From Propionivibrio sp. (GTDB lineage Bacteria; Pseudomonadota; Gammaproteobacteria; Burkholderiales; Rhodocyclaceae), in NCBI GenBank assembly GCA_003249625.1, contig QKII01000440.1, positions 1 to 22,941 of the forward strand: a stretch of DNA of 22,941 nucleotides, given 5' to 3'. Position 1 is the stretch's first letter; each line of letters opens with the position of its first letter. The position numbers were made by a program, and so were the translations under genes. The notes beneath the pieces are model-generated. The model made no database searches. It was not told the DNA's origin and worked only from the letters and a program-made list of their open reading frames with translations. Shown in pieces: positions 7,824-17,540 of the stretch.

Positions 7824-8198
7824 TCAGGCGAACAGAACGCATCCCCAGACGAACGCCACGTTCACCAGAGCGAGCAGGACAGCCGCGCTGCCGACGTCCT
7901 TGGCCCGCTTCGATAAATGATGCCGATCGAGTGAGACACGGTCCACTACGGCCTCGATCGCCGAATTTATCAACTCCACGATCAACACCAACAACACGCT
8001 GGCGATCATCAGCGCCCGCCCGGTCCAGGTCACCGGCAGAAAAAACGAAGCGGGAATCAGAAGCAAGGCCAGAAAGACTTCCTGGCGAAAAGCATCCTCG
8101 CAGGTATAGGCAGCGCGAAAGCCGGCCAGTGAGTAGTGCAGCGCGTTCCACACGCGTCGCAAGCCGGTTTTTCCCTTGAACGGGCTCTCTTCGGACAC
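7824..8198 (-). CDS. dgkA: Diacylglycerol kinase (DgkA)
   Basis: This small integral inner-membrane enzyme phosphorylates diacylglycerol with ATP to phosphatidic acid, returning it to phospholipid synthesis. From the GTG at 8198 the product is 124 residues, matching the family (about 120). Three hydrophobic membrane segments are visible, and the signature VELINSAIEAVVDR (about 74-87) includes the conserved Glu75 and Glu82. The GTG is preceded by GAGGAA. An upstream in-frame ATG at 8279 would add 27 non-conserved residues and has no ribosome-binding site. The gene lies 90 bases behind the glycosyltransferase on the same strand and ends three bases from the convergent diguanylate cyclase gene. 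Beside a predicted phospholipase C and a lipid glycosyltransferase, it probably competes for the same diacylglycerol pool. Confidence 0.93.
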   Translation of the reverse strand: MSEESPFKGKTGLRRVWNALHYSLAGFRAAYTCEDAFRQEVFLALLLIPASFFLPVTWTGRALMIASVLLVLIVELINSAIEAVVDRVSLDRHHLSKRAKDVGSAAVLLALVNVAFVWGCVLFA

Positions 8199-8231
8199 TT
8201 TGTTTCCTCGCAGGATCAACGGAAGCGGGCG

Positions 8232-8237
8232 AGTATA
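8232..8237 (-). promoter_or_regulatory. Possible internal -10 element ahead of dgkA
   Basis: On the minus strand TATACT matches five of six bases of the -10 consensus in the 90-base gap between the glycosyltransferase gene and dgkA, with the GTG start about 34 bases downstream. I see no convincing -35, so this is only a hint that dgkA can be expressed apart from the genes before it. Confidence 0.25.
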
Positions 8238-8288
8238 CCTGTGGCCGAACTGTTCCGGGTCAGTCGCCATGAACAACATTGCACACGA

Positions 8289-9479
8289 TCATCGTGAGAG
8301 CAGACTGCATGCCGCAGTGACCTCTCCGGCATGTTCCGCGACGATTTGCCGATAAAGCGCCGCCATGCGTCCGGCCAGTACATCGCACGACCATTCCGCC
8401 GCGTATCTGAGCGCCTCGGCGGAGAGTTGCCGCCGCAGCCCCTCGTCATTGAGCAGTCGCGTCAGTGACAAAGCGAAGGCATAAGGATTTCCATCCGGCA
8501 CCAGAGCCCCGCGCTCCGACCGGAGAATATCCGCCGTTCCCATTTCCGCCAGTGCCACCACCGGGAGGCCCGTCGCCATGGCCTCGAGCAGGACCAGCCC
8601 CTGCGTCTCGGTGCGCGAGGCAAAGACGAAGGCATCGGCAGCGGCATAGCACGCCGGCAGTTCGCTTGCCCGGTCGAGATAGCCGATGAAACGGACCCGG
8701 TCGCCAAGCCCGCGCTTGTCAACCGCCTGCCGCAATGCCGGCAAGGCCGGACCGTCGCCCGCGATGACCAGCAGCAGGTCGGGAACCCACTCGCTGGCCT
8801 GTTCCGCGACATCGAGCAGGAAATCGATGTTCTTTTCATGCGCCACGCGCCCCACGTAAAGCGCCACTCGCTTCGCTTCGTCAATGTCATGGCGAATGCG
8901 GAACCAGCTGCGTGCGCCCTCGGTGGGCGTATTCAGCGACACGCCGGTCGGCAGTACGTGCTGCCGTGCCGTAACCCCGTACTCCGTAAGACGGTGGCGC
9001 ATCGCGGTTGATGGCACTATCACTGCATCCAGCGCATTGCACTGACGCTGCGAAAGCCGGCGAGCCAGCACCTTGAGCCAGCTTGACGGCACCAGCGGCA
9101 CGTAGTGCGCCAGATACTCCTCGAACAGGGTGTGATAGGTGGCGACGACAGGAACGCGGAAGCGGCGCGCCATCCGCGAGCCCGCGTAGTGGGCAAGGAA
9201 CGGCGTCTGCACATGAACAAGATCGCCGCCCTCGGAAAGCGCGGCTTCGACTGCCCGGTTCATCGCTCCCCAATGCGCGAGCCGATCCTCGGGGTCACCC
9301 GGAACCTGCCGGGCCGGAACACGTCGGATCCATTCCTCTTCTTTCTCGCCACCATACGCCGGCGCCACCAACACAACGTCCACCCCGTGCGCCCGTAACG
9401 ACTCCCGGTACGTCTGAATCGCTGTCGACACCCCGTTGATGCGGGGAAAGAACACATCGGATACCATCACTACACGCAT
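8289..9479 (-). CDS. GT4-family glycosyltransferase, Agt/MgtA-like; probable glycolipid synthase
   Basis: The 396-residue protein has the GT-B fold of family 4 retaining glycosyltransferases. It begins MRVVMVSDVFFPRINGVST, has the nucleotide-sugar site GRVAHEKN at about 210-217, and the E-x7-E motif (Glu291, Glu299). It has no signal peptide or clear membrane span, as expected of a peripheral enzyme on the cytoplasmic membrane face. The start at 9479 follows AGGGAG by eight bases and overlaps the upstream metallophosphoesterase gene by 10 bases, so the two are probably translationally coupled. In known phosphate-starvation modules, a GT4 enzyme next to plcP (Agt) glycosylates diacylglycerol to mono- or diglycosyl-diacylglycerol. 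The same role is inferred here from family and neighbour. The sugar cannot be read from sequence, and another acceptor such as an envelope mannoside is possible. Confidence 0.85.
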   Translation of the reverse strand: MRVVMVSDVFFPRINGVSTAIQTYRESLRAHGVDVVLVAPAYGGEKEEEWIRRVPARQVPGDPEDRLAHWGAMNRAVEAALSEGGDLVHVQTPFLAHYAGSRMARRFRVPVVATYHTLFEEYLAHYVPLVPSSWLKVLARRLSQRQCNALDAVIVPSTAMRHRLTEYGVTARQHVLPTGVSLNTPTEGARSWFRIRHDIDEAKRVALYVGRVAHEKNIDFLLDVAEQASEWVPDLLLVIAGDGPALPALRQAVDKRGLGDRVRFIGYLDRASELPACYAAADAFVFASRTETQGLVLLEAMATGLPVVALAEMGTADILRSERGALVPDGNPYAFALSLTRLLNDEGLRRQLSAEALRYAAEWSCDVLAGRMAALYRQIVAEHAGEVTAACSLLSR

Positions 9480-10273
9480 GCAACCAACTCCCTGGATAAC
9501 CGCGGCGTTTCCTCGCCGACCTTGACCGGCGGTTCCATACCGCCCCATTGAACGAGTTCCAGCGCTCCGTCCAGATGCTCGACGATAGCGGTACAGCTAT
9601 CGACCCAGTCGCCACAATTGACGTACGCTGTTCCGTCGTCGGATTCACGGATCACCGCACTGTGGATGTGCCCGCAGATGATGCCGTCCAGCCCACGCTG
9701 GCGGGCGGCATGCAGCGCCGACTCCTCGAAATCGAAGATGAACTGCAGTGCCTTCTTGACCCGGCGCTTGGCGTAGCCGGCCAACGACCAGTAGCAGCGC
9801 ATACCGAAGCGTCGGCGAATCAGTGACAACAGCATGTTCGCGCGAACCAGCAGGTCGTAGGCCACGTCGCCGAGGACGGCAATCCAGCGATGATGGCGGG
9901 TGATCTGGTCGAACTCGTCGCCGTGCAGCAACAAAAAGCGCCGGCCGTCGGCCATCGTATGCACGTGCTCGCCGAAAATCTCGATATCGCCGAACGAGAT
10001 ATCGAGATAATCACGCAGCGCTTCGTCATGATTGCCGGGAATAAACACCACTCGCTCGCCTCGGCGCGCGCGGCGCAGGATTTTCTGCACCACGGTATTC
10101 TGTTCCGGCGTCCACACGATGCTGCGACGCATCGCCCAGAAATCGACGATGTCGCCAAGAAGAAACAGGTTCTCGGCGCTATAGGTGCGCAGAAAGTCGA
10201 GAAGCCGGTCGGCCTGGCACGCCCGCGTGCCCAGATGAATGTCGGAGAGGAAAACGGATCGTACTCTGGTCAT
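9470..10273 (-). CDS. PlcP-like metallophosphoesterase (UDP-2,3-diacylglucosamine diphosphatase family)
   Basis: The 267-residue protein is a two-metal calcineurin-like phosphoesterase with all ligand motifs in order: DIH (Asp11, His13), GDIVD (Asp41, Asp44), GNHDE (80-84), HGDE (117-120) and GHIH (201-204). Automatic annotation would call it LpxH-like. However, the RRSIVW stretch, the region HHRWIAVLGDVAYD (127-140) and the C-terminal NCGDWV-CTAIVEH block resemble, from memory, the PlcP phospholipase C of Sinorhizobium and marine bacteria. PlcP cleaves phosphatidylcholine or phosphatidylethanolamine to diacylglycerol. It overlaps a GT4 gene downstream, the arrangement used to recognise plcP-agt modules. 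No Shine-Dalgarno sequence precedes the ATG. The alternative, a second lipid-A pathway hydrolase, cannot be excluded without alignment. Confidence 0.82.
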   Translation of the reverse strand: MTRVRSVFLSDIHLGTRACQADRLLDFLRTYSAENLFLLGDIVDFWAMRRSIVWTPEQNTVVQKILRRARRGERVVFIPGNHDEALRDYLDISFGDIEIFGEHVHTMADGRRFLLLHGDEFDQITRHHRWIAVLGDVAYDLLVRANMLLSLIRRRFGMRCYWSLAGYAKRRVKKALQFIFDFEESALHAARQRGLDGIICGHIHSAVIRESDDGTAYVNCGDWVDSCTAIVEHLDGALELVQWGGMEPPVKVGEETPRLSRELVACV

Positions 10274-10295
10274 GCAGACATGGTGCGATCCAATC

Positions 10296-10324
10296 GTTAC
10301 GCGCCGGTGTCATTGCCATTACGT
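10296..10324 (-). promoter_or_regulatory. 11-base-period repeats upstream of the plcP-like gene, possible Pho-box-like operator
   Basis: Read on the minus strand, three 7-base units lie 11 bases apart: ACGTAAT (10324-10318), ATGACAC (10313-10307) and GCGTAAC (10302-10296). Eleven-base periodicity is the spacing of PhoB half-sites. Units one and three share GTAA(T/C) with the second half of the candidate Pho box before phoU. The middle unit fits better on the other strand (GTGTCAT). Agreement with the E. coli Pho box is only partial and no good -10 follows, so this is tentative. A similar triplet precedes the olsB-like gene. Confidence 0.3.
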
Positions 10325-10331
10325 TTTTGTT

Positions 10332-10360
10332 TTTAGCCCGTCGCGACGATTCGATAGAAT
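10332..10360 (+). promoter_or_regulatory. Candidate promoter of rpiA
   Basis: TAGAAT (10355-10360) matches five of six -10 bases. The hexamer 17 bases upstream, TTTAGC at 10332-10337, is a poor -35 (three of six). Transcription would start near 10367, about 36 bases before the rpiA ATG. It lies in the 129-base divergent region shared with the minus-strand lipid genes. Confidence 0.35.
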
Positions 10361-10402
10361 AGCCGCTCCCCTCAGACCATCAATCCCAAGAAGAAGCAAA
10401 CC

Positions 10403-11077
10403 ATGACTCAGACCATGACCCAGGACGAAATGAAGCAGGCAGTTGCCCGCGCCGCTCTTGAATACGTTGTCGAAGGACGCATTGTCGGCGTCGGTACCGG
10501 ATCCACCGCGCGGATGTTCATCGAAGCTCTCGCCGGCTTGAAAGACCGGATTGCCGGCGCCGTTGCCAGCTCCGAGGACACCCGCCAGCGTCTCGAGGGC
10601 CACGGCATCAAGGTTTTCGATCTCAACGAAATCACCGACATGCCGGTATACATCGACGGCGCGGATGAAATCACGCCGGAAATGCACATGATCAAGGGCG
10701 GCGGCGGTGCGCTCACGCGCGAGAAGATCGTCGCAGCGGTTGCCGGCAAGTTCATCTGCATCGTCGATGGCACCAAGGTCGTCGACTACCTTGGCCGCTT
10801 CCCCCTGCCCGTCGAAGTCATCCCGATGGCCAGCGCCCACGTCGCGCGCGAACTAGCAAAACTCGGCGGCACACCGGTGGTTCGCGAAGGCTTCGTCACT
10901 GACAACGGCAACCTCATTCTGGACGTCCAGGGCCTGAAGATCCTCGACCCGGTCGACCTGGAAACACGCATCAACCAGATTGCAGGCGTGGTAACCAACG
11001 GCTTGTTCGCGCTCCGTCCTGCCGATGTCTGCCTCATTGGCACACCTGACGGCGTAAAAACGATGACTGCGGACTGA
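10403..11077 (+). CDS. rpiA: Ribose-5-phosphate isomerase A
   Basis: RpiA interconverts ribose-5-phosphate and ribulose-5-phosphate in the pentose phosphate pathway. The 224-residue protein matches the family length (about 219 in E. coli). It shows the phosphate-binding GTGSTA (31-36), the active-site DGADEI (85-90), [11 protein letters not shown] (98-108, with Lys98 and general base Glu107) and a conserved C-terminal half. The first ATG is used; an ATG four codons later is equally possible, since only a weak AAGAAG purine stretch precedes the pair. It is transcribed away from the plcP-like gene, and its stop codon overlaps the candidate Pho box of phoU. Nothing suggests a functional link to its lipid and phosphate neighbours. 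Confidence 0.97.
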
Positions 11078-11107
11078 AACAAAACTGTAATCTCGTCCCG
11101 CTAGAAT
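11074..11107 (+). promoter_or_regulatory. Candidate PhoB-dependent promoter of phoU (Pho box plus -10)
   Basis: The 18 bases at 11074-11091, CTGAAACAAAACTGTAAT, form two 7-base units 11 bases apart. They match the E. coli Pho-box consensus (CTGTCAT, four A/T-rich bases, CTGT(C/A)A(C/T)) at 15 of 18 positions. Exactly 10 bases later is TAGAAT (11102-11107), five of six to the -10 consensus. A Pho box replacing the -35 about 10 bases ahead of the -10 is the known layout of PhoB-activated promoters. Transcription would start near 11114, 40 bases before the phoU ATG. The box overlaps the rpiA stop codon. No experiment supports it; the match is by eye. Confidence 0.6.
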
Positions 11108-11117
11108 TGGCGGGACG
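11094..11117 (+). repeat. Perfect inverted repeat around the phoU -10 element
   Basis: CGTCCCGC (11094-11101) and GCGGGACG (11110-11117) are exact reverse complements separated by TAGAATTG, which contains the proposed -10. No T-run follows, so it is not an ordinary terminator for rpiA. It could be an operator over the promoter, or an RNA hairpin if rpiA transcripts read through. The related sequence CGGGACGCC also occurs at 11911-11919 before the olsB-like gene. Confidence 0.5.
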
Positions 11118-11153
11118 CCCCCCCTTACACGCTAGAGCGCCGGAGACAAAGGC

Positions 11154-11858
11154 ATGAACGAGCTGCATACGTCGAAGAATTTCGATCTTGAACTGGAAAG
11201 TCTGCGCACCCGAGTGCTGCAGATGGGCGGACTCGCCGAAGAGCAGGTCCGCAAGGCCGTCGACGGGCTGTACAGTAGCGACATTCCTTTGTTGGAGCGC
11301 GTCATTAGCGACGACGCGAAGATCAATGAGTTAGAGGTGGAAATCGACGCGCTCTGCAACCAAGTGCTCGTCAAACGCCAGCCCACCGCCATCGACCTGC
11401 GCATGGTCGTTTCCGTCATGAAAACCATTGCCGACATCGAACGTGTCGGCGACAAGGCCCGCAAGATCGCCCGTCTCGGCATCTCGATCAACAATCAGAA
11501 CGGCGGCACACCGGTCAACGTCGAACTGAACCACATGACTGAAACGGCGCTAAAGATGCTCCGACTGTCACTGGACGGATTCGCCCGCCTCGATCTTGCC
11601 CTGGTCACCGAAGCCGTTCGCCTCGACGAGCAGGTCAACACCGAGTACCGCGGCATTGCACGCCAACTGATCACCTACATGATGGAAGATCCGCGCACAA
11701 TCACCCGCTCGCTGGACATCCTGACCATCGCCAAGGCCATCGAGCGCATCGGCGATCACGCGACGAACATCGCAGAATACGTGGTTTACATGATCAAGGG
11801 ACTCAACGTGCGGCACGCCAGTATCGAGGAAGTCGAAGCGCATTTGAAGGGCGACTGA
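11154..11858 (+). CDS. phoU: Phosphate-signalling regulator PhoU
   Basis: PhoU is a cytoplasmic helical protein that links the phosphate transporter Pst to the sensor kinase PhoR and keeps the Pho regulon off when phosphate is plentiful. The 234-residue protein has two PhoU repeats, with metal-binding signatures DIERVGDKA (94-102) and AIERIGDHATNIAE (195-208), and normal family length. CGGAGA at 11141-11146 supports the start. Unlike the usual pstSCAB-phoU arrangement, no transporter or phoBR gene is adjacent. Its neighbours are rpiA and an OlsB-type acyltransferase, with lipid-remodelling genes just beyond. The upstream Pho-box-like promoter suggests induction by phosphate shortage. Function rests on family membership and is secure; the regulation is inferred. 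Confidence 0.96.
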   Translation: MNELHTSKNFDLELESLRTRVLQMGGLAEEQVRKAVDGLYSSDIPLLERVISDDAKINELEVEIDALCNQVLVKRQPTAIDLRMVVSVMKTIADIERVGDKARKIARLGISINNQNGGTPVNVELNHMTETALKMLRLSLDGFARLDLALVTEAVRLDEQVNTEYRGIARQLITYMMEDPRTITRSLDILTIAKAIERIGDHATNIAEYVVYMIKGLNVRHASIEEVEAHLKGD

Positions 11859-11873
11859 CGCGTCGCCAAAAAT

Positions 11874-11922
11874 AGCGTCGTCTCGTAACATGCAGGACAT
11901 ACGCCTGTAACGGGACGCCGCT
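11874..11922 (+). repeat. Imperfect inverted repeat upstream of the olsB-like gene
   Basis: The 16-base arm at 11874-11889 (AGCGTCGTCTCGTAAC) matches the reverse complement of 11907-11922 at 13 positions, plus one that could form a wobble pair in RNA. A 17-base spacer separates the arms. No T-run follows, so it is not a standard terminator for phoU. The arms include the CGTC(T/C)CG / CGGGACG sequence also forming the hairpin before phoU. Confidence 0.45.
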
Positions 11923-11927
11923 ATCGT
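11883..11927 (+). promoter_or_regulatory. Candidate Pho-type promoter of the olsB-like gene
   Basis: Three 7-base units lie 11 bases apart: TCGTAAC (11883-11889), AGGACAT (11894-11900) and CTGTAAC (11905-11911). The last fits the Pho half-site consensus at all seven positions, the others at five and four. Exactly 10 bases after the last unit is TATCGT (11922-11927), four of six to the -10 consensus. The layout equals that of the stronger site before phoU. The linkers are GC-rich, unlike classical Pho boxes, so confidence is modest. Confidence 0.4.
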
Positions 11928-11953
11928 TCCTCCAAGACAACAAAGGAGGAACC

Positions 11954-12736
11954 ATGAACATCCAGGACACACTTACCCCCGGCAGGTTATTGTCGCCACC
12001 CAAGACAGGTTCGCGCGACACAACTTTCTCGGTCGGACTAGCCATCAGAGCGTCAGAAATCGAGTCTGCGCAACGGCTCCGTTACCAGGTCTTTGCCGAA
12101 GAACTCGGTGCCAGACTGACTTGCCCAGTACCGCGCGTCGACGAGGACATCTACGACCCGTTCTGCCACCATCTCCTCGTCTGCGACAACCGCACTGGCA
12201 CCGTAGTCGGCACCTACCGCATCCTCTCGCCCAAGAACGCTGGAGCGGTCGGCCAGTATTACACCGAGGGCGAATTCGACATCAGCCGCCTCTCGCACCT
12301 TCGGCAAAACATGGTTGAAGTCGGACGTGCCTGCGTGCATCCCGATTACCGGACCGGCGCCACGATTGCCCTGCTCTGGTCCGGTCTCATGCGCTATATG
12401 CGCCAGAACGGTTATAGCCACCTGCTCGGCAGCTGCTCCATCAGCATGGCCGACGGCGGACATGCTGCCACCAGCCTCTACGCCCGACTGCAGGAATACA
12501 TGATTTCGCCGGAATACCGTGTTTTTCCACGCTGCCCGTTACCGATCGAGTCGCTGCGCCACAACGTACCGGCCGCCGTTCCGCCACTGCTCAAAGGCTA
12601 TCTGCGCGCCGGCGCCTCAATCTGCGGCGCCCCGGCCTGGGATCCCGACTTCAACACCGCCGACCTGCCGCTACTGCTCCCTCTGGCCAACATCGCCGCA
12701 CGCTACGCACGCCACTTCGTCAAGCGCAACGCCTGA
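11954..12736 (+). CDS. olsB: OlsB-type GNAT N-acyltransferase; probable L-ornithine N(alpha)-acyltransferase
   Basis: Proteins of this family transfer a 3-hydroxyacyl chain from acyl carrier protein to the alpha-amino group of ornithine, giving lyso-ornithine lipid, precursor of a phosphorus-free membrane lipid. The 260-residue protein shows family marks: RLRYQVFAEELGA (41-53), the acidic DEDIYDPFCHHLLV (63-76), GTYRIL (86-91) and VEVGRACVHPDYRTG (121-135), then a long C-terminal half with SCSISMADGG (160-169). Old annotations call such proteins putative hemolysins. A strong AAGGAGG site (11943-11949) precedes the ATG. It lies 95 bases after phoU. The O-acyltransferase OlsA needed to finish ornithine lipid is not in the window. 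A different amino acid or amine as acceptor remains possible. Confidence 0.75.
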   Translation: MNIQDTLTPGRLLSPPKTGSRDTTFSVGLAIRASEIESAQRLRYQVFAEELGARLTCPVPRVDEDIYDPFCHHLLVCDNRTGTVVGTYRILSPKNAGAVGQYYTEGEFDISRLSHLRQNMVEVGRACVHPDYRTGATIALLWSGLMRYMRQNGYSHLLGSCSISMADGGHAATSLYARLQEYMISPEYRVFPRCPLPIESLRHNVPAAVPPLLKGYLRAGASICGAPAWDPDFNTADLPLLLPLANIAARYARHFVKRNA

Positions 12737-12766: not shown

Positions 12767-13603
12767 TCAATACACCACTTGCTGCAGTATCTCGCCTGTC
12801 TGCTGGACGTAATAGACGATCCGGCTGACCTGGAACGGCACATCGTATTCGACTGTCGTCGTATGCCGGGTCGTCTTCACGACCGGCAACAGCTTTTCGC
12901 CGCGGTCATTGACGAAACGATCCTCGGCGACTTTGCCGACGAACAGCACCGAGACGGTTGCACCACGCAACTCCTGTACCTTCTCCTCGGTCACCGGAAG
13001 TTCCTGATTGAAGTAGAACTTGTTCCGGTCGAGTTGAAAGCCATCCTGAACGAAAAGGCTGTCGATGGGAATGGCTATGCCATGGATCTCGTGCGTCGTC
13101 GCCATTTCGACATCGGGCTCCGCGTTCGCTGAAACGGCACGCTCAGCAGGCAGCACGTGATCGCTGATTGGACACGTCACGTACCCTTCGCGAAAGCCTG
13201 ACGCCGGACAGCCGTAACCGTTCTTGCCGCCAAAGTGGTAAACCTGCCGCGCTGCGTTGTAACTGGCCGAAAGTCCTACCACCCGGAAGGCGTAGTTGAC
13301 CTTCGTGCCGATCGGCTTTAGAACCGTTTCCGTATCCGCCGCACGCTCCACGAACTGCGCCAGAGATTCATCCTTCCTCTTCTCAAGCGCGCCTAACTGC
13401 TTTTTGAAAATCTCGAAGAAGCGTTTCTCGTCAACTCCCGCGTAGTGTTCCGGCAATCGCCCCTTCCCTTCCACGAAGGGTTGCAGGAGCGGCGCCGTGT
13501 CCTTCGGCGGCATTTTCTTCTTTTTCTTGGCCGCCAGTGCCGACGTACTGACAGACACGCCGACAGCCAGCGCCAGAATCGTCACGAAGGCATTTTTTAT
13601 CAT
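12767..13603 (-). CDS. Unrecognised exported protein (278 residues)
   Basis: I do not recognise this family. The chain begins with a clear signal peptide: a short positive start, a hydrophobic stretch (about 5-20) and SALAA, suggesting cleavage near residues 24-25. A KKKKK run follows at once. The mature part has no further membrane span. It contains a charged helical segment (about 55-95), two cysteines 12 residues apart (Cys132 in YGCPASG, Cys144 in VTCP) that could form a disulfide in the periplasm, and a probably beta-rich C-terminal half. No lipobox is present. It is the last gene of the rsmE-pap-argA-yggX group, 18 bases after yggX, and converges on the olsB-like gene with 30 bases between. 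Coding is supported by uninterrupted frame, signal peptide and tight spacing. Confidence 0.85.
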   Translation of the reverse strand: MIKNAFVTILALAVGVSVSTSALAAKKKKKMPPKDTAPLLQPFVEGKGRLPEHYAGVDEKRFFEIFKKQLGALEKRKDESLAQFVERAADTETVLKPIGTKVNYAFRVVGLSASYNAARQVYHFGGKNGYGCPASGFREGYVTCPISDHVLPAERAVSANAEPDVEMATTHEIHGIAIPIDSLFVQDGFQLDRNKFYFNQELPVTEEKVQELRGATVSVLFVGKVAEDRFVNDRGEKLLPVVKTTRHTTTVEYDVPFQVSRIVYYVQQTGEILQQVVY

Positions 13604-15274: not shown

Positions 15275-16780
15275 TCAATCCTTCCCGTTTTTCGGTTTCT
15301 CGTCAGTCAGCGCCAGCTCCAGGCGCTCGCAGATGGTCTGCAAAATTTTCACGCGCGCGAACGATTTGTCATCGGCCTCGACCAGCGTCCAGGGCGCCGT
15401 GCCGGTACTGGTGCGATCAACCATGTCGCACACGGCGGCGTGGTAGGCAGGACGCTTCTCGCGGTTGCGCCAGTCCTCATCGGTAATCTTGAAACGCTTG
15501 AACGGAATCTTCTCACGCTCCTTGAAGCGCCTCAATTGTTCCTTGTCACTGATCTGCAGCCAGAATTTGATGACGATCGCACCATCCTCATGCAACTCGT
15601 GTTCGAAGTCGTTGATCTCGGTGTACGCACGCAGCCAGTCAGCCTCTGTGCAGAAGCCCTCGACGCGCTCCACGAGCACCCGCCCATACCAGGTCCGGTC
15701 GAAGATGGTTACCCGGCCATGCCGCGGTATGTGCCGCCAGAAGCGCCAGAGATAAGGCTGCGCACGCTCTTCCTCCGTTGGCGCGGCCACCGGCACGATC
15801 TGGTAACGCCGGGCGTCGAGTGCTGCCGTCACCCGCCGGACGCTGCCGCCCTTGCCCGCGGCATCCGCGCCCTCGAAAGCCAGGATCAGCGAACGGTGGG
15901 AAAACGCCGGGTGGCGGACGAGGTCGGCGAGCCGCCCCTGCCACTTGGCCAGTCGCGTCTCGTAGGCTTTCTTTTCCAGCTTTTGGGTCAAATCAAGTAC
16001 AGTAAGCACATCCAGGCTGTCGGTCTTCTGGACGATCGGCGGCGCCACCGGAAAGCCCTGATCGCGTTTATCCGCCAGCCTCTTCTGCAAGGCATCGAGA
16101 ATGACCTTGCCGACCGTCAGCGAACGGTAACGATCGTCGGTGCCTTCGATTACGATCCACGGAGCCCAAGGCGTATTGGTCATGCGCAGTATATGCCCGG
16201 CGGCTTCCTGCAGCTTGCCGTAGGTCTTCACCCGCGCCCAGCTCTCCTTTGTTACGCGCCAGGCGGTGCGAGGGTCGCTCTCCAGCGCCTTCAGCCGTTG
16301 CCGCTGGCCGTCTTTCGAAAGGTGGAACCAGAATTTCAGAACCAGCGCGCCCTCATTGACCAGCATCGCCTCGAAGCGATTGATCTGATCCATCCGCTGG
16401 TCGAGGTCACCGCGCGACAACTTGCCGGCAATGCGCTCGGCGATTGGCGAGGAATACCACGAGCCGGCGAAGATGCCGATCCGTCCCTTGGGCGGCAAGG
16501 CGCGCCAGAAGCGCCACATGAACGGTCGCTCGCATTCCTCATCGGACGGCGCAGCGAAGGCCAGCGTCGACAGAAAGCGCGGGTCCATCCACTCGTAGAG
16601 GACATTGATCGTCTCGCTCTTTCCCGCCCCATCGACCCCGCTGATCAGGATCACAACCGGAAAGCCGCCGTTCTCGCGCAGATCGAACTGAGCATCGAGA
16701 AGCGCCTCGCGCAACTTGGGAACTTCGGCTCGAAACGTCTTCTTGTCGATCGCGTGTCCCAGCTCCGCCGACTCAAACAT
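15275..16780 (-). CDS. pap: Polyphosphate:AMP phosphotransferase (two-domain PPK2 family)
   Basis: This enzyme uses inorganic polyphosphate to phosphorylate AMP to ADP, drawing on stored phosphate and energy. The 501 residues hold two PPK2 domains in tandem, as in the class II (PAP) subgroup. The first (about 15-235) has Walker A GVDGAGKS (48-55) and FAGSWY (104-109). The second (about 270-495) has Walker A GADAAGKG (304-311) and FDRTWYGRVLVE (360-371). The DR-x-WY signature is intact only in the second domain, which is therefore the likely catalytic one. The ATG at 16780 is chosen over an in-frame start 63 bases upstream because GGAGG lies eight bases ahead. Its start overlaps the end of rsmE by eight bases. 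A phosphate-storage role fits the phosphate theme of the neighbouring locus, but shared control is not shown. Confidence 0.94.
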   Translation of the reverse strand: MFESAELGHAIDKKTFRAEVPKLREALLDAQFDLRENGGFPVVILISGVDGAGKSETINVLYEWMDPRFLSTLAFAAPSDEECERPFMWRFWRALPPKGRIGIFAGSWYSSPIAERIAGKLSRGDLDQRMDQINRFEAMLVNEGALVLKFWFHLSKDGQRQRLKALESDPRTAWRVTKESWARVKTYGKLQEAAGHILRMTNTPWAPWIVIEGTDDRYRSLTVGKVILDALQKRLADKRDQGFPVAPPIVQKTDSLDVLTVLDLTQKLEKKAYETRLAKWQGRLADLVRHPAFSHRSLILAFEGADAAGKGGSVRRVTAALDARRYQIVPVAAPTEEERAQPYLWRFWRHIPRHGRVTIFDRTWYGRVLVERVEGFCTEADWLRAYTEINDFEHELHEDGAIVIKFWLQISDKEQLRRFKEREKIPFKRFKITDEDWRNREKRPAYHAAVCDMVDRTSTGTAPWTLVEADDKSFARVKILQTICERLELALTDEKPKNGKD

Positions 16781-17540
16781 CGCGCGCTCCTCCGAAGTCA
16801 CCCAAGTCGCCCCACAAACACTGAATCGCCGCCAGCGCGGCAAGTCCCGCCGTTTCCGTGCGCAATACCCGCGGCCCCAGGCGGATACCGGCGAATCCCG
16901 CCTTGACGGCCATCGCTTCTTCCTCCGGCGCGAACCCGCCTTCGGGCCCGATCAGCAGTTCGACACGCAGCCCTCCTGTGGGCCGCACCAAGGTCTGCAA
17001 TGTATTGTCCGATCGCGGATCAAGCATCAAACGCAGAGCGCTGTGGTCGAACGGTCGCCCCAGCCACTGCCGCAGACTTTCCAACTCGCTGATTTCCGGG
17101 ACGCGATTGCGCCCGCACTGTTCGCAGGCCGATGCTGCCACGGCACGCCAGTGTTCTACACGGCGCCGAGCCCGATCGCCTTCCAGGCGCACCACACTCC
17201 GTTGAGAAGCCACTGGAACGATCCGCTGCGCGCCCAACTCGACGGCTTTCTGCACAGTCAAATCCATTTTCTCGCCCGCCTGCAGTGCCTGGACAAGAGT
17301 GATCTCGAGCGGTGATTCGCATTCTCTGTCACGCCACGTCTGCATTTCGGCAACCACCTCGTCGCGCCCGCAACGGGCGATCCGCGCCAGGAACTCGCCA
17401 CCCCGCCCATCGAACAGGATCAGTGCATCGCCTTCACGCAACCGGAGCACCCGGGCGGCATGTCGCGCGGCGCTTTCGGAAAGTGCGACGCACGCCCCCA
17501 CGGACAGGGTTTCGGGGCTGTAAAATCGGGGCGCATTCAT
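16773..17540 (-). CDS. rsmE: 16S rRNA m3U1498 methyltransferase (RsmE)
   Basis: RsmE methylates N3 of U1498 in 16S rRNA using S-adenosylmethionine. The 255-residue protein has the N-terminal PUA-like RNA-binding part (about 1-70, with RFY and HAARVLRLREGD) and a C-terminal SPOUT knot domain. The knot motifs LLIGPEGGFAPEEE and LGPRVLRTETAGLAAL bind the cofactor. Length is near the usual 240-250. The start is fixed by the typical MNAPRFY beginning. No Shine-Dalgarno site precedes it; instead a perfect TATAAT lies seven bases ahead, suggesting a leaderless transcript. It heads the minus-strand group leading through pap, argA, yggX and the exported protein gene. Confidence 0.96.
   Translation of the reverse strand: MNAPRFYSPETLSVGACVALSESAARHAARVLRLREGDALILFDGRGGEFLARIARCGRDEVVAEMQTWRDRECESPLEITLVQALQAGEKMDLTVQKAVELGAQRIVPVASQRSVVRLEGDRARRRVEHWRAVAASACEQCGRNRVPEISELESLRQWLGRPFDHSALRLMLDPRSDNTLQTLVRPTGGLRVELLIGPEGGFAPEEEAMAVKAGFAGIRLGPRVLRTETAGLAALAAIQCLWGDLGDFGGARDV

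Follow-up and report, generated by a model that had tools for sequence, protein, structure and literature searches.

The stretch of Propionivibrio sp. DNA analysed here (contig QKII01000440.1, 22,941 nt, the window) carries a compact group of six genes around a plcP gene for a phospholipase C-type metallophosphoesterase. This gene opens a unit that continues in the same direction with an agt-like glycosyltransferase gene of family GT4 and with dgkA for a prokaryotic diacylglycerol kinase. On the other strand rpiA, phoU and an olsB-like N-acyltransferase gene are found, and three of the genes (plcP, phoU and the olsB-like one) are preceded by predicted Pho boxes (Table 1). We consider it probable, as far as sequence comparison can tell, that this is a membrane-lipid remodelling island under Pho control in which DgkA would return diacylglycerol to the phospholipid pool.

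Table 1. Genes and predicted regulatory sites of the locus (window coordinates)
Feature	Position	Strand	Remarks
dgkA, prokaryotic diacylglycerol kinase	7824..8198	-	124 aa from GTG 8198; open reading frame open to 8279; Pfam DAGK_prokar
agt-like GT4 glycosyltransferase	8289..9479	-	396 aa; GT4 domains, codon scoring, overlap
plcP, phospholipase C-type metallophosphoesterase	9470..10273	-	267 aa; heads the plcP-agt-dgkA unit; Metallophos
predicted Pho boxes before plcP	10296..10324	-	three 7-bp half-sites, 11-bp spacing, ACGTAAT-GGCA-ATGACAC-CGGC-GCGTAAC
rpiA, ribose-5-phosphate isomerase	10403..11077	+	NCBIfam above cut-off
predicted Pho box before phoU	11074..11091	+	CTGAAAC-AAAA-CTGTAAT
phoU, phosphate signalling protein	11154..11858	+	TIGR02135 above cut-off
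predicted Pho boxes before the olsB-like gene	11883..11911	+	TCGTAAC-ATGC-AGGACAT-ACGC-CTGTAAC
olsB-like N-acyltransferase ("island" copy, an extra gene seen in a small clade)	11954..12736	+	best NCBIfam model OlsB, below cut-off

All six genes had been named in an earlier reading made from the letters alone (the sequence-only reading), and Pfam or NCBIfam profile matches confirmed each of them at its place. Genes were called by codon scoring in this G+C-rich DNA. The overlap reported for the phosphoesterase and glycosyltransferase genes exists, but it comprises 10 nt and not 79 nt, the glycosyltransferase most likely starting, according to codon scoring, at ATG 9479 and not at 9548. For dgkA the likelier start is the GTG at 8198, which is preceded by CGAGGAAACAAA; the resulting 124 aa are the part that aligns with solved DgkA. 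The closest relative contig, L001, encodes a PlcP that is 91% identical and has the gene order of the window from aceE to tlpA. L002 and L003 come next; their labels are Propionivibrio and Candidatus Accumulibacter. For the comparisons 121 genomes were drawn from the family of G001, the genome of L001, and the Rhodocyclus genomes G006 and G008 are included in this sample.

We considered two alternatives for the phosphoesterase. First, it could be PlcP, as the sequence-only reading had proposed; second, it could be LpxH or an LpxH-like lipid A enzyme, matching the names UDP-2,3-diacylglucosamine diphosphatase or LpxH that PlcP-like proteins frequently carry in public records. The protein contains a Metallophos domain (Pfam, 48 bits) and the D-x-H, GDxxD, GNHD, HGD and GHxH motifs of calcineurin-like metallophosphoesterases, a list which we take to be the PlcP motif set. 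Besides the database names, only weak matches to LpxH models (46–53 bits) speak for LpxH; against TIGR01854 the protein scores 46 bits with a cut-off of 190, and a separate LpxH above this cut-off was present in all ten relatives' genomes searched. It is 50% identical over 240 aa to the equivalent of PA3219 of Pseudomonas aeruginosa, the reference being a plasmid-borne copy followed by a glycosyltransferase gene and cyaB, which was taken as the order PA3219-PA3218-PA3217 (PA3217 presumably being cyaB). In a tree of 30 rows eight LpxH sequences split off with 100/100 support, and the window protein was placed among the PlcP-like sequences including P. aeruginosa PlcP. The LpxH rows of this tree were picked by a GNRD motif search, so that the tree is no test of that motif, and the Sinorhizobium meliloti match on pSymB is an uncharacterised row that cannot be taken as the characterised SMc00171. 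The window protein reads GNHDE where all five readable LpxH rows of the alignment read GNRDF and solved LpxH reads GNRD. By score, by the separate LpxH of the relatives, by the tree and by this motif an LpxH identity is ruled out, and we give it practically no chance. Judged by its sequence, the product of 9470–10273 is PlcP and not LpxH. Many proteins called LpxH in public records are likewise PlcP-like.

The neighbourhood was then followed through the family sample. PlcP was matched in 106 of the 121 genomes, of which 82 were kept (>260 bits) and 24 matched at the level of LpxH only; 15 gave no match. The other genes were kept in 98 of 100 genomes for OlsB (fragments in G026 and a 32% match in G114 dropped), in 109 of 110 for DgkA (a 40-aa fragment in G043 and weaker second matches dropped), and in 118 of 120 for PhoU (fragments in G040 and G055 and weak second matches dropped). 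Among the family genomes with both genes, the distance from plcP is at most 10 kb for agt in 54/70, for dgkA in 43/80, for olsB in 25/78 and for phoU in 16/81. Within the same distance agt is found near dgkA in 47/74 genomes (46 of them within 3 kb), near olsB in 24/73 and near phoU in 18/75, and the remaining pairs are olsB-dgkA (34/93), dgkA-phoU (17/106) and olsB-phoU (6/97). About 0.4 to 0.6 genomes per pair are expected from random placement, and with nine of the ten pairs in 16 to 54 genomes a chance neighbourhood is ruled out. The family genomes are related and the counts are thus not independent events. The linkage can be called recurrent because the gene orders vary: plcP-agt-dgkA-GT2, olsB-agt-dgkA-GT2-plcP, GT2-plcP-olsB, divergent olsB and plcP, and others. 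In Rhodocyclus tenuis (L009) the order plcP-agt-dgkA-GT2 is found next to rpiA-phoU. Of the two conserved linkages that the sequence-only reading had suggested looking for, plcP-agt-dgkA was found to be recurrent, but phoU and olsB are neighbours in few genomes.

Co-occurrence points in the same direction as linkage for three of the genes. agt is present in 70/82 genomes with plcP vs 6/39 without (Fisher 8e-14), olsB in 78/82 vs 20/39 (4e-8), and dgkA in 80/82 vs 29/39 (2e-4); phoU is near-universal in the family, and its co-occurrence is therefore uninformative. We also clustered the neighbours within 6 kb of plcP at 83 loci (82 of the family and the window), profiling one representative per cluster, so that single members may differ. 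The window-type GT4 was found at 53 of these loci, a second GT4 at 52, dgkA at 40, olsB at 23, phoU at 15, pstC/pstA-type genes at 14, pstB-type genes together with other ABC ATPases at 13, rpiA at 11, OlsA at 9, PstS and PhoR at 7 each, and PhoB-type regulators at 6. The second GT4 had no match at E <= 1e-30 in 6 of 10 genomes searched (including G001–G004), and none in the window. An EAL-GGDEF cyclic di-GMP protein (c10) in 11 and a CYTH-CHAD protein (c24) in 7 of the 83 loci were further neighbours within 6 kb.

Outside the family, a class-wide search of 274 genomes found PlcP at E <= 1e-40 in 79. At least 15 of the 56 class members with a listed DgkA have dgkA within 10 kb of plcP, and after removal of four whose PlcP is >=70% identical this still holds for at least 11 of 52. 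In 5 of the 11 listed distant plcP-dgkA loci an Agt1-type enzyme, 45–53% identical to that of P. aeruginosa, is encoded within 2 kb. The frequency in these distant genomes shows that a dgkA next to plcP, in many cases together with a glycosyltransferase gene, is no quirk of a single genome; the recurrence here and across the 121 family genomes refutes a neighbourhood unique to Propionivibrio sp.

The glycosyltransferase is coupled to plcP by overlap as well as by linkage, in agreement with the sequence-only reading. Its assignment as an Agt is less direct. The protein has GT4 domains (Pfam, up to 133 bits), and its best NCBIfam match is alpha-monoglucosyl-diacylglycerol synthase, with 129 bits at a cut-off of 400. 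It is 31% identical over 327 aligned positions to the P. aeruginosa Agt1-equivalent. The acceptor of the enzyme could instead be a lipid other than diacylglycerol, or a glycan (phosphatidylglycerol and a surface polysaccharide are examples), with PlcP serving phosphate salvage. Both the low identity and the near-equal scores of the glucosyl-diacylglycerol and the N-acetylglucosaminyl (GlcNAc)-phosphatidylglycerol synthase models, each far under its cut-off, would suit such an acceptor. With the overlapping genes, the strong co-occurrence of plcP and agt and the Agt1-type enzymes at the five distant loci on the other side, we regard it as quite improbable.

The dgkA product matches DAGK_prokar with 118 bits and aligns with solved DgkA chains (E 1.7e-27) through the segment ELxNSAIEAVVDR. 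It is of the same family as Escherichia coli DgkA, with which it aligns over the whole membrane domain; E. coli DgkA is not known to lie within a lipid remodelling cluster. The linkage counts bear out that dgkA is a recurrent member of the lipid island. Since it runs in the same direction behind plcP and agt, dgkA may be expressed together with the two exit enzymes, which would fit a valve working simultaneously with them rather than a separate later switch. A return or overflow branch for diacylglycerol through DgkA, as the sequence-only reading had assumed, is a reasonable suggestion.

DgkA could also be a housekeeping enzyme for recycling the diacylglycerol that other envelope reactions release, placed here by the shared substrate and returning no diacylglycerol made by PlcP. 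The cluster gene is the sole DgkA match in G001 at E <= 1e-5, and dgkA is kept in the 29 of 39 genomes without plcP mentioned above. It adjoins rpiA in G060, G084 and G112: in the first two plcP was not found, and in G112 (L110) decayed plcP pieces are situated between dgkA and rpiA, an intact plcP-agt pair being present on another contig. All of this would be expected of a housekeeping enzyme. Its repeated placement near plcP in family and distant genomes, in several orientations, would not be, and neither would the increase of DagK, a kinase of the DgkA or of another family, that the available text on Pseudomonas putida reports on phosphate depletion (PMC5082522). We therefore hold the purely housekeeping role to be rather unlikely.

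As Table 1 shows, phoU and plcP are separated by rpiA. RpiA scores 305 bits (NCBIfam, above cut-off), and PhoU 221 bits with TIGR02135 (cut-off 130) and 257 bits with a second model, NF008332, which is under its cut-off of 342; in G001 there is one phoU match only at E <= 1e-10. The sequence-only reading had taken the presence of phoU as a sign of one circuit. To judge this, 19 family genomes whose phoU lies away from plcP were picked by hand and not drawn at random. In 14 of them rpiA adjoins phoU without plcP, with a yggX-type gene also present in 11 and argA and ppk2 in 9, often in the order argA-yggX-phoU-rpiA; in the other five phoU is part of a pst-phoU cluster. The pair rpiA-phoU is thus ordinary synteny of the family, and the argument from the presence of phoU is weakened and does not stand alone. 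rpiA is a housekeeping neighbour outside the system. Because rpiA-phoU is independent of plcP, the likeliest course is that the lipid unit came to sit beside a pre-existing rpiA-phoU pair.

The last gene of the group is the olsB-like one. Its product matches Acetyltransf_5 with 122 bits, and the best NCBIfam models are those of OlsB, with 161 and 158 bits at cut-offs of 320 and 350; as both are under cut-off, we call the gene OlsB-like. A search of solved structures with this protein gave no match. In a tree of 76 sequences (two rows that were short or had a stop dropped, 16 identical rows merged) it falls among sequences encoded beside OlsA, an assignment of the neighbours in which the OlsA model itself scores 138 bits with a cut-off of 300. 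Within this tree the window copy belongs to a clade of seven (support 97/94) that occurs at the window-like place only. G001, G002 and G003 have, besides this island copy, a canonical olsB-olsA pair elsewhere; the sole OlsB match of G004, G128 and G112 is the island copy. The window contains no olsA; the OlsA matches of G001 sit on other contigs. That olsB is a recurrent member of the island is supported, but the gene of the window is an extra copy of a small clade without adjacent olsA.

A second recurring cluster was noticed at L230–L239, in genomes that have plcP elsewhere: olsA-olsB is in most cases accompanied there by the second GT4, by a gene of about 300 codons and by dgkA. The gene of about 300 codons codes for a PfkB-family kinase in all three cases scanned (L230, L236, L245) and may belong to the lipid pathway. 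Neither rpiA nor phoU was matched at L010 and L107 (G009), L020 and L005, further loci where olsB is situated about 8 kb or less from plcP.

A phosphate link of the island was then sought in the promoters. The Pho-site model is strand-specific, with pstS promoters of the family as its only training set (30 taken, 28 used); its cut is set at 95% of the background, and it has a Pho-box-like consensus in which TGTAAC recurs every 11 bp. It was run on promoters of genes that head a unit, and those above the pair cut were the promoters of plcP in 36/54 cases, of the second glycosyltransferase in 13/21, phoU in 6/9, agt in 6/13, olsA in 4/5, the EAL-GGDEF gene in 4/10, dgkA in 2/8 and olsB in 7/22 (17/22 on three half-sites). 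The background gave 27/538, and this set itself includes genes near phosphate genes. None of 13 rpiA promoters was above the cut, nor was a site found before rpiA in the window. The 7/8 of the pstS promoters is no test, some of them being training rows. For the window, a triple equal to that of plcP occurs in 1.1% of the 538 background upstream regions, and a plcP triple at -51 or -52 is also present in L001–L004, L006–L008 and L035 (0 to 2.2% of background). The phoU pair is equalled in 1.5% of the background and its best triple in 3.9%, the olsB-like triple in 1.1%; L001 likewise has Pho-box-like sites in its phoU and olsB promoters. Some relatives also have pst, phoB and phoR genes close to plcP, and together with these the predicted boxes uphold the phosphate link that the sequence-only reading had drawn.

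The chemistry of OlsB/OlsA and of DgkA is established for their families. From the observed family identities, the recurrent linkage and the predicted Pho sites we infer how the island might work in this organism. At low phosphate PhoB would bind the tandem half-sites in the three promoter regions (plcP, phoU, olsB-like gene). PlcP would split membrane phospholipids into diacylglycerol and a phospho-alcohol, and the GT4 enzyme would glycosylate the diacylglycerol to yield a glycolipid free of phosphorus. Ornithine lipid could be contributed by the extra OlsB-like enzyme together with an OlsA whose gene lies elsewhere. DgkA, probably made from the plcP-agt transcript, would phosphorylate unglycosylated diacylglycerol to phosphatidic acid and so lead it back to phospholipid, a step that would prevent diacylglycerol build-up and allow the flow to reverse. 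PhoU would be the ordinary phosphate-signalling protein already present beside rpiA, with the lipid genes having settled adjacent to it.

Several results weigh against this interpretation. The canonical Pho box, allowing up to three mismatches, has no match in the window (1.13 expected). A first Pho-site model, trained on plcP and pstS promoters and run on both strands, put the window sites at 8–11% of the background; it was partly circular and passed 6/13 rpiA promoters (the intergenic stretch upstream of rpiA can be that of plcP as well), and was replaced. Taken as pairs alone, the plcP site is matched by 4.6% and the olsB site by 10.6% of the background, and just under a third of the olsB promoters reach the pair cut. 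To these are added the sub-cut-off OlsB models in a window without olsA, the rpiA-phoU pairs without plcP, and the distance of the GT4 enzyme from Agt1 with its near-equal GlcNAc-phosphatidylglycerol score. In the available text of the P. putida study, moreover, the phoBR-mutant results list PlcP and OlsAB as absent and not DagK, which is counted as PHO-dependent in the discussion only (PMC5082522).

A narrower explanation is that the functional unit comprises only plcP-agt, with or without dgkA, and that rpiA, phoU and olsB are neighbours through ancestral synteny and chance, with no circuit at the level of the locus. The rpiA-phoU synteny, the scarcity of olsB-phoU neighbours and the restriction of the island olsB to seven of the 76 tree sequences are in its favour. 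It does not account for olsB lying near plcP in 25 of 78 genomes and in many orders, or for the Pho-box-like sites before phoU and olsB in both the window and L001. We regard this narrower unit as possible but clearly less likely than the remodelling island. The sequence-only reading is partly supported and sound in its core: PlcP is identified, agt, dgkA and olsB recur with plcP, and a phosphate link is predicted. phoU and the olsB-like gene were over-read, the former being there by old synteny and the latter being an extra copy.

Parts of the system are known from other bacteria. The reactions of PlcP and Agt are established for their families (PMC8528852, PMC9239053, PMC4796936), and in the sections of these sources available the pathway is demonstrated for P. 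aeruginosa (PMC8528852) and Methylosinus (PMC9239053); according to Jones and co-workers, glycolipid synthesis under phosphorus stress involves PA3219 and PA3218 (PMC8528852). As in the PlcP-Agt pathway of Sinorhizobium, Phaeobacter MED193, Pelagibacter, P. aeruginosa (PA3219-PA3218) and Methylosinus, plcP of the window stands immediately before a GT4 gene, with a Pho-box promoter (predicted in the window) and a phosphate link. Unlike there, dgkA comes next in the same direction, the GT4 enzyme is distant from Agt1, and phoU and an extra olsB-like gene are alongside. With the OlsBA pathway the window shares an OlsB-type acyltransferase; it differs in that its copy is extra, has no adjacent olsA and stays under the curated OlsB scores, the canonical pair being elsewhere in the relatives named above. 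In P. putida BIRD-1, PlcP, DagK, OlsA and OlsB are up on phosphate depletion and are termed PHO-dependent in the discussion (PMC5082522, from the text available). These are the same four functions and are phosphate-responsive, but they are reported as proteins from proteomics and not as a gene cluster, and DagK may belong to another family than DgkA of the window.

The sequence-only reading had regarded the grouping as undescribed. Its novelty is lowered because the set PlcP, DagK, OlsA and OlsB was already published for P. putida (PMC5082522, text available in part). The survey of Sebastian et al. (PMC4796936) describes six plcP gene contexts in the part available, and the words dgkA and phoU are absent from its main text. 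In the open-licence literature we found no description of a plcP-dgkA cluster, of a lipid remodelling cluster in Rhodocyclaceae or Accumulibacter, or of dgkA with an ornithine lipid cluster. The new point is dgkA as a recurring gene of the plcP cluster; the lipid chemistry and the protein set are already known. If the interpretation is right, phosphate-driven lipid remodelling in a betaproteobacterial family (with Rhodocyclus, Propionivibrio and Accumulibacter among its members) would include an enzyme of its own for returning diacylglycerol, a component that the PlcP-Agt scheme, in the published parts at hand, omits. Whether DgkA is needed to balance or to reverse lipid remodelling would then become a testable question.

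A wider proposal can be made tentatively. DgkA could belong integrally to the PlcP-Agt pathway of many Gammaproteobacteria (in the sense of GTDB) and be co-transcribed with it, forming a two-way diacylglycerol valve by which phospholipid would serve as a fast reversible phosphorus store; in relatives of polyphosphate accumulators this valve would be wired to PhoU and lie near a polyphosphate kinase gene. Taken as a whole we think this doubtful.

Some further genes were noted. At 15275–16801 on the minus strand of the window a two-domain polyphosphate kinase 2 gene adjoins argA, a pair that recurs in relatives; phoU is a few kb away, and the organism is related to bacteria that accumulate polyphosphate. 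On a plasmid of Mitsuaria sp. 7 (L229) plcP immediately precedes ppk1, and a Ppx/GppA phosphatase gene is nearby, another instance of plcP close to polyphosphate genes. Beside the olsB-like gene, at 12767–13603 on the minus strand, a 278-aa protein is encoded that gave no Pfam or NCBIfam match at E <= 0.001; it has a signal-peptide-like start and homologues in L001–L003.

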